Source: Candidatus Poribacteria bacterium | Lineage (GTDB): Bacteria; Poribacteria; WGA-4E; WGA-3G | Reading direction: 5' to 3' | Assembly (NCBI GenBank): GCA_022821965.1 | Contig: JAJECN010000015.1 | Coordinates: 242,785 to 306,784, forward strand | Length of the DNA: 64,000 nucleotides | In this document: piece after piece, positions 33,821-39,700 of the stretch | Layout: each line of letters opens with the position of its first letter | Numbering within the stretch: the first letter of the stretch is position 1 | Made by a program: the position numbers and the translations under genes | Notes under the pieces: model-generated | Databases searched by the model: none | Seen by the model: the letters and a program-made list of their open reading frames with translations, nothing else | What the model was told of the DNA's origin: nothing

Positions 33821-34543
33821 ATTTATTATTGTGGTGTCTGGGGCTTGTGAATTCTCAGACGCATACCCATATTGCCAGAGGGCGGAGACGGGAGGTAGCG
33901 GGACTACCCCGGCAATCCGTCTCCTACGTCCACTCGTAACCCTACCCGATTCCCCGAAGGAAACCAAATAGAATCACGACGCTGCTTAAAAATATCAGAC
34001 ACATCAACCGATATATATGATATAATTAAAACCGCACTGGCAATTCATTCTTGGCAGTGCCACGGTTGGGGAGTCTGATACACTTGCCCAACCATTCAAT
34101 CCATAATAGGACTTTACGGATGCCAAAAATAGTATACCAAAAATCGAAACAAATTACAACAATTTTTTTCATATCAACCCAATTTTTGCGCTAAACCCAC
34201 GCCCATCCAACAAATTTTGATCTTTCGTAGACATTCCCTCTGATAAGGGGGTTATTCTCTTACCTCTGTAAGGTATTTTTGCTTGGGGTGTTTCTGCGGA
34301 TTTCTGCGGATTTTCCTGGCTCTTGTGGCTGCCCACCATCCAATCTTCCCATCTTTCAATCCTGCAAATCCTAAAATCCTGTAAATCCTGATTCAGACAA
34401 TTAACCCCCATCATCCGTCTCATCGGCGATAATCCGAGATTCAGACCGGAAAAATACTCAAAAAATACGCCCTAACGTCTCTTACAATCACCTTAGTTTT
34501 AAACTTTTGACAAAATATTTACACACCCTCCCTGTCGCTAAAT
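33821..34543. other. repeat-rich intergenic region without genes
   Basis: This stretch carries repeat copies (34375-34402, 34501-34531) and the reading frames are short and follow repeats. A frame at 34169-34423 reads only repeat sequence. I see no convincing gene, RNA or mobile-element ends. Confidence 0.6.
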
Positions 34544-34572
34544 TTGACAAAAGCAATCGCTTATGCTATAGT
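34544..34572 (+). promoter_or_regulatory. promoter of the gamma-glutamyltransferase gene
   Basis: TTGACA (34544-34549) and TATAGT (34567-34572) are 17 bp apart, with an extended -10 TG one base before the TATAGT. It lies about 35 bp ahead of the ATG at 34605. Confidence 0.8.
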
Positions 34573-34604
34573 AGGTTGCACGGTTTTAAGCGAGGAGATA
34601 AAGC

Positions 34605-36215
34605 ATGTTTGATGGGTACTTCCCAAACCAATTTGGACCTGGACGTTCTGCTGTTATCTGCCAACATGGGGCAGTCGCAACGAGCCAACCACTTGCTGCG
34701 CAAAGCGGATTACAAATCTTACGCGAGGGTGGAAATGCTATTGACGCTGCGGTCGCGATGGCAGCGATACTCAACGTCGTTGAGCCGATGTCAACCGGTA
34801 TTGGTGGCGATGCCTTTATGCTCGTTTACCAATCCAAAGACGGCGTTCTTCGCGGCTTAAACGCAAGTGGTCGGGCACCCTACGCGGCAGAACTGGAATT
34901 CTTTACCAAGCAAGGGTTAACCAGTATCCCTTCTTTCGGGAGTATGTATCCGGTTACAGTCCCGGGCACAATTGATGGGTGGTCAACACTTCTTGAAGCG
35001 TGTGGAACCATGTCATTAGCAGAGGTGCTGCAACCTGCTATTAATTATGCCGAAAAAGGGTTTCCAGTCAGTCCACAGATTGGTCTCGCGTGGCAAGAAA
35101 GCGCGGCAATGTTGGCACAGCATCCCGATACGGCGCGGACATACCTCAACAATGGAAAAGCACCAGCACCCGGAGAAATCTTTCACCAACCGAATCTTGC
35201 ACGGACCTTTCGACTGATTGCAGAAGGCGGTCGAGATGCCTTCTATCAAGGCGAGATCGCTGATAAAATTGTGAAATTCTCTGATGAAAATGGAGGTCTG
35301 TTTACAAAACAGGACTTCGCTGAACACAGATCGGATTGGGTTGAACCGATTTCTACGAATTATCGGGGTTACGATGTCTATGAAATTCCACCAAATGGAC
35401 AGGGCATCGCTGCACTGCTCGCACTCAATATCGTTGAAGGATTCGATCTTGGAACGATGGGGCACAACAGCTCTGAACATCTACACTGCGCAATTGAGGC
35501 CATGAAATTAGGCTTCTCCGATCTTTACCAATACGTGACAGATCCGACGTTTGTAGATGTCCCGGTAACTGGGCTGCTTTCCGATGATTATACGGAAACT
35601 CAGCGAAAGCGTATCTCGCCGGAACGGGCGAACCTGACACCAACGCCCGGTGTTCCGTCAATGGGAAGTGATACGGTGTATCTCTGTGCAGTTGACAGCG
35701 ATCGAAACGTCGTTTCCTTCATCAACAGCATCTTCGCGGGTTTCGGTTCAGGTTTGGTTGCTGGTGATACAGGTATCATGTTACAAAATCGGGGTGCAGG
35801 TTTTTCACTTAACCCCGACCATGCAAATTGTATTGCGCCGCATAAACGGACGCTGCATACGATTATCCCAGGTATGATCGGGCGAAATGGCGTTCCCTTA
35901 GTGACTTTCGGGGTCATGGGTGGGCAAATGCAAGCGCAAGGGCACCTCCAATTTGTGTCCAATCTCGTAGATTTCAATATGGACGTACAAAACGCGTTGG
36001 ATGCACCTCGATTCCGAGTGATGGATGACTCGCGGGTTATGCTGGAGGCAGGCATTCCGATGAATGTCCAAGCCACGTTGGCACAGAAAGGACATCGTAT
36101 TATACCGGGGAACACGTTCTTTGGCGGCGGGCAAGCGATCTTTATCAACCCATCCTTTGACACGCTTGCCGCCGGTTCAGATCCAAGACGAGATGGATGC
36201 GCAGTGGGTTATTGA
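34605..36215 (+). CDS. ggt: gamma-glutamyltransferase family protein
   Basis: The 536-residue Ntn hydrolase resembles GGT. Seen are the N-terminal GGNAIDAAVAMAAILNVVEP and GIGGDAFMLVY, the centre GQGIAALLALNI, and the autoprocessing Thr in MGSDTVYLCAVDS, followed by GIMLQNRGAGFSLNP. Family members split into two chains and transfer or hydrolyse gamma-glutamyl groups; some act on cephalosporins or other amides. No signal peptide is seen, so it may be cytosolic. GAGGAG lies seven bases before the ATG. Confidence 0.9.
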   Translation: MFDGYFPNQFGPGRSAVICQHGAVATSQPLAAQSGLQILREGGNAIDAAVAMAAILNVVEPMSTGIGGDAFMLVYQSKDGVLRGLNASGRAPYAAELEFFTKQGLTSIPSFGSMYPVTVPGTIDGWSTLLEACGTMSLAEVLQPAINYAEKGFPVSPQIGLAWQESAAMLAQHPDTARTYLNNGKAPAPGEIFHQPNLARTFRLIAEGGRDAFYQGEIADKIVKFSDENGGLFTKQDFAEHRSDWVEPISTNYRGYDVYEIPPNGQGIAALLALNIVEGFDLGTMGHNSSEHLHCAIEAMKLGFSDLYQYVTDPTFVDVPVTGLLSDDYTETQRKRISPERANLTPTPGVPSMGSDTVYLCAVDSDRNVVSFINSIFAGFGSGLVAGDTGIMLQNRGAGFSLNPDHANCIAPHKRTLHTIIPGMIGRNGVPLVTFGVMGGQMQAQGHLQFVSNLVDFNMDVQNALDAPRFRVMDDSRVMLEAGIPMNVQATLAQKGHRIIPGNTFFGGGQAIFINPSFDTLAAGSDPRRDGCAVGY

Positions 36216-36219
36216 ATTT

Positions 36220-36281
36220 TTGGTAGGAGGGAACTCCGATTCCCGACTCTTCTTGGTAGGAGGGAACTCCGATTTCCGACT
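36220..36281. repeat. two tandem copies of a 29-bp repeat, family C
   Basis: TTGGTAGGAGGGAACTCCGA starts at 36220 and again at 36253, period 33 bp, each followed by a CCGACT end. The core AGGGAACTCC is partly palindromic (GGAG...CTCC). It follows the ggt stop directly. Confidence 0.8.
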
Positions 36282-36342
36282 TACCCCGTATAACCCGTGG
36301 AAAACCGAAAACTGAATGGCTCTGAGGAGAAAGGGAAATTTT

Positions 36343-36371
36343 TTGACTTTTGGCTTGAATTAAGGTATAAT
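36343..36371 (+). promoter_or_regulatory. strong sigma70-type promoter upstream of gltB
   Basis: TTGACT (36343-36348) and TATAAT (36366-36371) are spaced by exactly 17 bp. Transcription should start near 36378, about 370 bp before the gltB start, so a long leader or a separate small RNA is made. Confidence 0.85.
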
Positions 36372-36377
36372 ATTAAA

Positions 36378-36560
36378 ACGCACAAACGGTTTTGATTCAA
36401 AAATTGAGAACCAAACCGAAGCATGTAAGCCCGCCAAACCGGTCGCGAATCATCAGTGACGCGATCGCTGATCGCCGTTGATTCCAAAGGCTCTCTTGCC
36501 TTGGGGCGCGCTACCTCTGGCAGGATACAAGTGGTCAGCGTCCGATGTAAACCGTGCGAA
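36378..36560 (+). ncRNA. candidate structured small RNA or leader of gltB
   Basis: A promoter at 36343 starts this segment. The 5' CGCA (36379-36382) and CGGTTT (36387-36392) pair with AAACCG-TGCG at 36549-36558, closing a structure of about 180 nt. Inside are GAATCA/TGATTC enclosing GCGATC-GCT-GATCGC (36447-36484), AAGGC/GCCTT (36487-36502), and CGCT-ACC/GGT-AGCG (36509-36540). A further hairpin at 36609-36625 lies downstream. Size and closed-end shape resemble 6S RNA, but I do not recognise its sequence. It could also be a regulatory leader of glutamate synthase. Confidence 0.45.
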
Positions 36561-36749
36561 ACACCCTATCCAACCCTTGAAAGCGAAGTCCGTTTTTTGG
36601 TTGTTTGTACCCTTAAGAAAAGGGTGGGGTTAAGGCACGCAAACCTCGCTCGGCAGATTAAATATGGAATCATCTGGAATTGAGCGGCCGCTCTACAATG
36701 CCAATGCAAAAGAAATTATAGAAGGAATGTATGGAGAGTCAATTTACAA

Positions 36750-39700
36750 ATGTATAGTGATTTAAAAGAAAAAGATGCCTGTGGCGTTGGTTTTGTTGCG
36801 AACCGTTTCGGAAATCGGAGCCATGAGATTATTAAAATGGCAACACAAGCGGTCACAAACCTGACGCACCGAGGTGCCGTAGCCGCTGATGCAAAGACAG
36901 GCGACGGCGCAGGTATTCTAACACAAATTCCGGAGAAAATATTTCAAAAAGCACTTGAGAAACTTGGCGTACACCTGAATTCCATAAATGACATGGGCGT
37001 CGGAATGATTTTCCTGCCAAGGCACGACCAGGATGCTCAGACGCAAGGACGCGAAATCGTTGAAAAGATACTACAGCAATACGGTGTTCCCCTCCTCGGG
37101 TGGCGTTCAGTCCCTCAGGATCTTTCCGCACTCGGTGCTAAGGCACTCGAAACACTGCCGGAGATTCAACAGGTATTGGTAGGACGGCCAGAGCAACTTA
37201 CCGATGACGCTTTTGAACAACGCTTGTATCTGATATGCAAAGAATTAGAACACCGTGTCGCGGCGACCGAACTCGATGAATTCCATATCGCCTCTTTTTC
37301 GCATCGAACCGTTGTCTATAAAGGATTATTGGTCGCACCCCAACTTGACCACTTTTATCCAGATCTAAAAGATCCTGATTTTCAAGCAGCACTTGCTGTT
37401 TTCCACCAACGCTACAGCACGAATACCTCGTCCACGTGGATGCTTGCTCAACCCTTTCATACGCTTGCGCACAACGGTGAAATCAACACCTTGATGGGCA
37501 ATCGCAATTGGATGCGCGCGCGCGAAGCCGACTTGCAGTCCCCCCTCTGGAACGAAGATATTCAGAAACTTGTCCCAATTATCAACCAACACGGAAGTGA
37601 TTCAATGAGCTTGGATAACGTCTTGGAGTTGCTAACACACTCTGGACGTGATATCTTACATGCTATGATGTGTCTAATTCCTGAAGCGTATGAGCAGATT
37701 CCAGATATGCCGGACGTGTTGAAAAACTGCTATGAGTACCTTTCATGTGTCAGTGAACCTTGGGATGGACCAGCAGCGGTCGCCTTTACAGACGGCGTTA
37801 TCGTCGGCGCAAGTCTGGATAGAAACGGACTACGACCGGCACGCTATAAAGTCACAGAAGACGGAACCGTTGTCATGGGATCCGAAGTTGGTATCATTGG
37901 ACTTGATGATGATAGGGTCGTGGAGAAGGGGCGTTTGGGACCCGGGCAGATGATTGCTGTTGATACAGCGCAAGGGGAATTGATAAAAGATTCGGAGATT
38001 AAACATAATATTGCCAAGCGGAAACCCTATGCCGAATGGGTAAAAAAGGGCATTGTGACGCTCCCAACGCGAAAGACCGATCCGAACACAACGATGGATA
38101 CCGCATCTGAGCAGCTGGCGACATGCCAGAAGGCTTTCGGCTATATGATTGAGGATATCGAGCGATTTATCAAACCAATGGTAACCGAGGCTAAGGAAGC
38201 TGTCGGTTCAATGGGCGATGACACACCGCCTGCTGTGATTTCTCAGCATCCCCGTTCGCTCTACAGTTATTTCAAGCAACGTTTCGCACAGGTTACAAAT
38301 CCACCTATTGACTCAATCCGTGAACGTTTGGTGATGTCGCTCACGACCTACCTCGGACGACAGTACAGTTTACTCACAGAGACATCCGCACATGCGCGAC
38401 TCATCCGATTATCTTCACCCGTCTTGACAAATGACGATTTACAAGCGTTACGAAATCTTGATATACCCGATTTTCAAGTAGCAACACTCTCTGCTTGTTT
38501 TCCGGTAGCCTCTGGTAAACAAGGCTTAGGAGCCGCGTTGGAGGAATTGTGCCAGCAGGCTTCCGAGGCAGTCGAGGCTGGGAAAACCCTGCTTGTGCTA
38601 AGCGACAAGGATGTCGCCCCTGATACCGCACCAATTCCGATGGCACTTGCTGTCGGTGCTGTCCATCACCATCTGATTCGAGAAGGCAAGCGAATGCGCG
38701 CAAGTCTCATCGCTGAAACTGGTGATGCAAGGGAAGAACACCATTTTGCTGTTCTCCTCGGTTACGGGGCAGCTGCAATCAATCCTTATCTCGCTTTCTC
38801 AACCATCGCTCACCTTGCTGAGGATGGTGAATTTGAAGAGCTCACAGCACTGAAAGCCATTGAAACTTATAAAGAAACTGTCGAGAAAGGGCTCCTAAAG
38901 ATTATGGCAAAGATGGGGATCTCGACGGTGTCGAGTTACCGCGGTGCCCAGATTTTTGAGGCACTGGGGATCAATGCAACGGTCATTGATAAGTGCTTTA
39001 CAGGGACCACTTCGCGCCTAAGCGGCATCGGGTTTGATGAAATTGCCGCCGAAACGCTCCATTTTCACGCAAAAGCGTTTTCCGGGAGCGATGGTGACCC
39101 ATCGTTAGAAGAGGCAGGCTATTTCCGATTCCGTAAAAACGGCGAATTCCATGCGTTCAATCCAGCAGTGTTTAAATCGCTTCACAAATTTGTCAAGGGC
39201 GGTGAATCGGAGGATTATGAGAAATACGTTGCTGCTATTGAGGAAGGAGAACCCTCCAGTCTACGAGACCTCCTCGTTTTCAAGCCGAGCACGCCCATCC
39301 CGATTGACGAGGTTGAACCAGCAGAAGATATTGTTCGACGTTTTACAACCGGTAGTATGTCGTTCGGAGCGTTAAGTCGTGAGACACATGAGACCTTAGC
39401 AGTAGCGATGAATCGCCTCGGGGCGAAATCAGGAAGTGGAGAAGGCGGTGAGAGTAGCGCGCGCTTCAAACCACAACCCAACGGAGACCTCGCCTCCAGT
39501 GCTATCAAACAGGTCGCATCTGGACGTTTCGGTGTGACACCGACCTACCTCGCCTCGGCACGGGAATTGGAAATCAAGATGGCGCAAGGCTCGAAACCCG
39601 GAGAGGGTGGACAGATCCCCGGACATAAGGTAACAGCCGAGATTGCTTCTATTCGACACTCTGTCCCCGGTGTACCACTCATTTCACCACCGCCGCATCA

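Follow-up and report, generated by a model that had tools for sequence, protein, structure and literature searches.

The upstream region of gltB

In the 64,000-nucleotide stretch of a Candidatus Poribacteria contig analysed here (the window), an ORF that we take to be gltB, a name that comes from the original prediction and from general knowledge, is preceded by a long noncoding region with a sigma-70-type promoter at its upstream end (Table 1). The near-consensus promoter claimed in the original prediction is present, matching the consensus at 11 of 12 positions, and 378 bases separate the end of its -10 box from the gltB ATG codon at 36750. Scanning returned four promoter-like sites, as compared to 0.8 +/- 0.9 in shuffled sequences, and no further site on the plus strand ahead of gltB. 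The promoter has accumulated 1.86 changes per site among 35 sequences, against 6.65 at four-fold degenerate gltB sites, and is visible in all 35 aligned loci, a count to be read in the knowledge that extraction of the loci itself required the promoter pattern.

On the opposite strand, the sequence TTGACT-16-TATAAT (36715-36742; 11 of 12 consensus positions) overlaps the gltB ribosome-binding site (RBS), and is probably a chance occurrence because its -10 part differs in most relatives. Immediately 5' of the promoter, some 25 bases at 36300-36328 (GGAAAACCGAAAACTGA...) belong to a dispersed repeat, found by nucleotide search at many unrelated sites in congeners.

Table 1. Features of the gltB upstream region in the window, and of the corresponding leader in a sister genus
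Feature	Position	Strand	Remarks
Sigma-70-type promoter, TTGACT-17-TATAAT	36343..36371	+	TTGACT 36343-36348, 17-base spacer, TATAAT 36366-36371
Predicted 5' leader of gltB, ~372 nt	36378..36749	+	start inferred from the -10 box
Conserved noncoding element, ~280 bases	36378..36655	+	low substitution rate; in 38/38 genomes of the genus
Hairpin P1 (CGGUUU/AAACCG, inner UUCAA/UUGAG), 5' hairpin	36387..36418	+	88.0% of outer and 71.8% of inner cells paired
Conserved block 1 (GAAGCATGTAAGCCCGCCAA.CCGGTCGCGAATCA)	36418..36452	+	2.0 changes per site; alignment A2
Hairpin P3 (GAAUCA/UGAUUC)	36447..36484	+	95.2% of cells paired; nearly invariant
Conserved block 2, core	36478..36552	+	1.9 changes per site (36493-36552: 1.58); codon periodicity absent
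Alternative hairpin P4 (CCAAAGGC/GCCUUGG, loop UCUCUU)	36485..36504	+	88.9% of cells paired in main part
Hairpin S1 (UCUUGCC/GGCAGGA)	36494..36525	+	98.0% of cells paired; 4/7 pairs never vary
Helix S2 (GGGCGC.GCUA with UAGU..GCGUCC)	36504..36543	+	90.5% of cells paired
Conserved block 3	36568..36612	+	2.33 changes per site; 3' of the end at 36560 first proposed
Hairpin P5 (AAAGCG/CGUUUU)	36580..36596	+	92.9% of cells paired
Variable spacer	36656..36732	+	6.53 changes per site from 36673 on; inserts in four relatives
gltB RBS, GGAGAG	36733..36738	+	also in the relatives' alignment (partial view)
gltB, glutamate synthase large subunit, 1497 aa	36750..41243	+	ORF list; relatives by tblastn
Sister-genus gltB leader	L069:2856-2988, L080:2844-2976, L083:2844-2976 and 11 further rows		alignment A4

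Extent and conservation of the leader element

The roughly 280 bases that begin the predicted leader are a genus-wide conserved noncoding element, evolving at less than half the rate of four-fold degenerate sites. Substitution rates were first computed for 35 sequences on a tree made from the leader itself, giving 2.73 changes per site for the element (223 columns with few gaps), 6.65 for 60 four-fold degenerate gltB sites, and 0.96 for the first and second codon positions of gltB (element versus four-fold sites, Mann-Whitney p = 4e-17). Repeating the calculation on the gltB tree gave 2.96, 6.18 and 0.86, respectively (p = 1e-13). The tightest segment, 36493-36552, is constrained to an extent comparable to that of the promoter (1.58 versus 1.86), and constraint persists to 36612 (2.33), weakens by 36655 (3.79), and is absent after 36673. 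The original prediction had named conservation in close relatives as a check, and the sequence is strongly conserved; the 3' end that it placed at 36560, however, corresponds to no natural boundary, and the conserved element is longer than the 180 nt or so that it envisaged. For the control interval 34150-34604, upstream of a neighbouring ggt-like gene, no comparable conservation was found in the 37 other congeners among the matches listed, which were partial and mostly dispersed repeats. This interval is rich in dispersed repeats that have many copies in the genus.

These comparisons draw on two alignments of 36 rows each (A2 and A3), which include the window itself and one further Poribacteria record (L067). 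Removed before any counts were the second copy in one genome (L026), a sequence equal to another (L021, equal to L020), the two halves of a locus in genome G014 (L038 and L039), a locus missed by the extraction pattern but where promoter and element were present on later inspection (L090), a sequence that does not differ from L035 in the 330 bases compared (L074), and 26 other duplicates.

In four relatives (L010, L018, L024 and L030), inserts lie between the element and the gltB start codon, an arrangement that argues against a mechanism requiring fixed spacing. Inserts of that size are not found inside the element in the aligned rows, the alignment ending at 36606. The four inserts are short and differ in kind; those of L010, L024 and L030 contain GGACTTACGCA or GCGTAAGTCC-like ends, and resemble small mobile elements.

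The presence of indels in the alignment and the lack of codon periodicity in the core indicate that the element is noncoding. It is highly improbable that the stretch encodes a small protein or leader peptide: a 75-aa frame with a GTG start does span the core in the window, but changes per site are spread evenly over the three codon phases of 36478-36552 (2.04, 1.84 and 1.96), with no three-base periodicity, relatives differ by 2 bases in length within the stretch, and frame ends are scattered over the 37 translated sequences. A coding frame in the leader was accordingly rejected.

Distribution and linkage to gltB

The element is essentially single copy, lies ahead of gltB, and is restricted to one genus. 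A covariance model, R1, was built from 36 sequences of the core and run on 84 Poribacteria genomes. It matches every one of the 38 that belong to the genus, with best E values between 7e-46 and 2e-4; the weakest of these matches, in G014, is truncated where a contig ends. Among the 46 other genomes of the phylum no match fell below E = 0.02, and three genomes outside the genus (G039, G040 and G053) gave matches at E between 0.02 and 0.1, the one in G039 sitting in a 4.5-kb stretch that has no GltB match. A nucleotide search of 60 genomes likewise matched 36, namely the window's own genome and all 35 congeners searched, and none outside the genus.

The window's genome holds a single copy. The N-terminus of GltB is found 3' of the element at 37 of 39 loci (L002-L040), and also in genomes G082 and G083. 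One of the two loci where it is absent, L038, is at the contig end of G014, the other half of which (L039) has gltB; the other, L026, is a second copy in genome G034. Additional copies are otherwise limited to G024, where copies on two contigs (L020 and L036) are each followed by a GltB match, and to a weak second R1 match in G006 (E = 0.026). In the case of G034, the second copy (minus strand, within 1200-1760) is a degraded leader in front of a truncated gene, presumably sugar-kinase-like from a reading of its translation. It retains a promoter-like sequence with the -35 box altered to TCGACT, and from its sequence looks like a segmental duplication in decay; for this reason it was rejected as proof of a free-standing RNA.

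The arrangement found throughout is that expected of a cis leader, with a conserved noncoding element between a promoter and one gene. In two records, L093 and L068, a comparable promoter-like stretch is present and gltB lacks the leader, which implies that the element is dispensable for gltB in general. In L068, repeats of the CAGGATTTTCACGATT or AATCCTG type occupy the gltB leader (about 2520-2990).

Alternatively, the promoter may drive a discrete trans-acting small RNA of about 180-290 nt that is ended or processed before gltB, with gltB itself reached by read-through. Such an RNA would be consistent with the loss of constraint near 36655, some 80 nt 5' of the RBS, where relatives tolerate inserts, and with the occurrence in G034 of a copy that has promoter-like sequence away from gltB. 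However, a scan of 36378-36749 detected no terminator-like or intrinsic terminator sites, every one of the 38 genomes has the element in front of gltB, there is no other plus-strand promoter-like site from which gltB might be transcribed, and the G034 copy, with its altered -35 box and truncated downstream gene, resembles a decaying duplication. A separate small RNA is thus rather unlikely.

Folding of the leader

The sequence of the element is too conserved to settle its fold. The covariation signal is weak, with a single hairpin, S1, being suggestive. The original prediction was of a structured RNA closed by pairing of its two ends (36379-36392 with 36549-36558), within which lay three hairpins, two of them with perfect arms. 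The perfect-arm hairpins exist, as CGGTTT/AAACCG (36387-36392 with 36413-36418) and GCGATC/GATCGC (36461-36466 with 36470-36475). The end pairing can be drawn in the window, and is partly present in the minimum-energy fold, but it is not conserved: only 43.2% of cells in the outer four pairs of the closing stem are paired over 36 rows, and five of them (L024, L025, L027, L028 and L030) have lost the 3' arm. The ends-joined fold was rejected on these grounds.

Nor do folding energies distinguish the leader from shuffled sequences. The fold energy of 36378-36560 is not beyond chance (z = -1.37; 14 of the 200 shuffled sequences are equally stable), that of the whole 372-nt leader has a z of -0.10, and the means over 36 sequences are +0.21 for the core and -0.56 for a 231-nt segment, neither set of energies lying below those of the shuffles. 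The consensus energy computed on the alignment is matched by 31 of 100 column shuffles for the core, and by 16 of 100 for the 231 nt. Testing all column pairs for covariation against a phylogenetic null yielded no pair that beats the null (best E = 2.2), and the absence of any significant pair points to low power of the test. For compensatory changes in relatives, which the original prediction had suggested looking for, the measures point in different directions. Pairs with changes on both sides lean upwards (9 versus 5.7 +/- 1.7 in shuffles, with 26 of 500 shuffles as high), whereas pairing in the chosen whole structure is close to neutral (90.2% of cells versus 89.7% shuffled), as are the energies.

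Individual helices differ in how they vary. S1 with a short extension is the only helix kept by RNAalifold on alignment A2, and one of its pairs is seen as G-C, G-U and A-U. P4 and S1 are mutually exclusive. S2 would be a pseudoknot if S1 forms; one of its pairs has a two-sided change, and it is broken in several rows. In P1, three of six outer pairs show changes on both sides, in a region that is less conserved (4.09 changes per site). The inner palindromic arm of P3 (36461-36475) is gapped in 14 of 36 rows, and has been lost in several lineages.

Conservation of sequence combined with a weak structural signal is also what would be seen if the stretch were a control region at the level of DNA, with the blocks being binding sites for regulators 3' of the promoter and RNA structure being irrelevant; DNA-level conservation would look identical to that observed. 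Against this, constraint is near-continuous over some 240 bases and reaches to +280, which is long for operators, and the cells of S1 are 98% paired with one pair varying in the manner described above. A DNA-level region is for these reasons improbable, more so than a discrete small RNA.

Comparison with known RNAs

The size and position of the stretch had pointed to a known RNA, with a 6S-like RNA or a glutamine-sensing leader being suggested in the original prediction. A covariance search with Rfam, proposed at the same time, matched no family, either in the window at gathering thresholds or in 36000-36900 at E <= 5. The 6S family (RF00013) has no match in the whole of the window's genome, and is positive in 5 of 14 control genomes; the RNase P RNA and tmRNA genes are located on other contigs. 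Consequently, 6S RNA, RNase P RNA, tmRNA and Rfam families in general were rejected as identities of the element; of the explanations weighed here, the least probable is that it is one of the three named RNAs or a glutamine riboswitch.

6S RNA binds the RNA polymerase holoenzyme, and has a conserved closing helix that brings its ends together and encloses a large, open bubble at its centre. The likeness to the gltB element lay in the proposed size and in ends for which a pairing can be drawn on the window sequence. In contrast to 6S RNA, the element has no conserved closing helix and is confined to one genus, so that the 6S-like interpretation does not hold. Glutamine riboswitches (the glnA and downstream-peptide RNAs) bind L-glutamine and, like the gltB element, are noncoding leaders ahead of nitrogen-assimilation genes. 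The element differs from them in being longer, in having no Rfam match to either type, and in having no established aptamer core or ligand, and assignment to these riboswitches fails as well. A further parallel is provided by the attenuators and protein-binding leaders of biosynthetic operons, which are gene-specific cis leaders; the gltB element shares with them a single locus, a narrow phylogenetic range and a position adjoining one biosynthetic gene, but differs in that the leader has no detected terminator or leader peptide.

An unrelated gltB leader in a sister genus

In a sister poribacterial genus, the region between promoter and RBS of gltB is occupied by a leader of unrelated sequence. 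It comprises two hairpins plus a long stem (GGUAUCCG/CGGAUACC), the latter a short distance 5' of a GGAGU RBS. The two leaders are alike in being specific to the same gene and in their placement; unlike the element in the window, however, the sister-genus leader has clear covarying helices, and is the better candidate for a structured RNA. Its alifold energy over 14 sequences is -31.9, as compared to -11.9 +/- 2.9 in column shuffles, none of 100 being as low. In a separate 14-row alignment, 91.9% of cells are paired versus 87.1% in shuffles, and two-sided cells number 11 versus 3.0, with none of 500 shuffles as high. These scores, obtained from more diverged sequences, indicate that the structure tests can detect structure where it is present.

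A model of this leader (R2) matches 14 of 18 sister-genus genomes at E <= 4.3e-17 and a fifteenth weakly (E = 0.04). In the window's genus it gives one weak match (G032, E = 0.03), and in the window's own genome none. Searching three sister-genus leader loci (L069, L078 and L085) against Rfam gave no match. The possession by the sister genus of a gltB leader of its own makes gene-specific leader control of gltB in the family more plausible.

Possible role of the element

Evolution has kept a noncoding stretch nearly unchanged, and the element therefore probably controls gltB. Of the original prediction, what stands is a promoter driving a conserved noncoding leader of gltB, as seen in the purifying selection on the element, its single-copy linkage to gltB, and the core without codon periodicity. 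The reading that we favour, and consider somewhat probable, is that this stretch forms the 5' portion of the gltB transcript, in which the first 280 nt or so of a leader of about 372 nt constitute a genus-specific regulatory element dedicated to gltB. Judged by its sequence features, the element is best regarded as a predicted new, lineage-specific, cis-acting leader RNA.

Position, length, gene specificity and the S1 signal together suggest that the element acts as RNA and in cis, in which case it would act after the start of transcription. The leader may fold around a core at 36484-36545, with S1 possibly alternating with P4, and S2 forming as a pseudoknot. A core folded in this manner could bind a metabolite or protein indicative of nitrogen state, and binding would then adjust gltB output. 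It is possible, if doubtful, that the element represents a new class of regulatory RNA for glutamate synthase, in which a pseudoknotted core (S1, S2 and the competing P4) senses a nitrogen signal.

The expression platform of a cis leader is commonly a terminator or sequestration of the RBS, although not every cis leader requires one. In 36 folded leaders that included the gltB start, no consistent partner of the gltB RBS was found. Pairing of the UCUCUU loop of P4 with GGAGAG was considered and rejected, as the loop is the top partner in only three of 36 folds (L028, L030 and L034). Given that neither a terminator nor a consistent RBS partner is found, control through RNA stability or factor-dependent termination, platforms that cannot be seen in sequence, is somewhat likelier than simple attenuation.

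The assimilation of nitrogen has a central place in sponge symbiosis, and searches of an open-access library turned up no report of a regulatory RNA from Poribacteria. An element of 280 nt that is present in 38 genomes, with a core nearly as constrained as the promoter, offers a clear target for metatranscriptomes. Were the predicted control by RNA to hold, then together with the structured leader of the sister genus it would mean that gltB has gained different RNA controls in different lineages of the family. If the element senses the state of glutamine, 2-oxoglutarate or ammonium, it would constitute a new sensor; if it is not a sensor, it still defines the control region of gltB in an uncultured lineage, a genus of sponge-associated Poribacteria.
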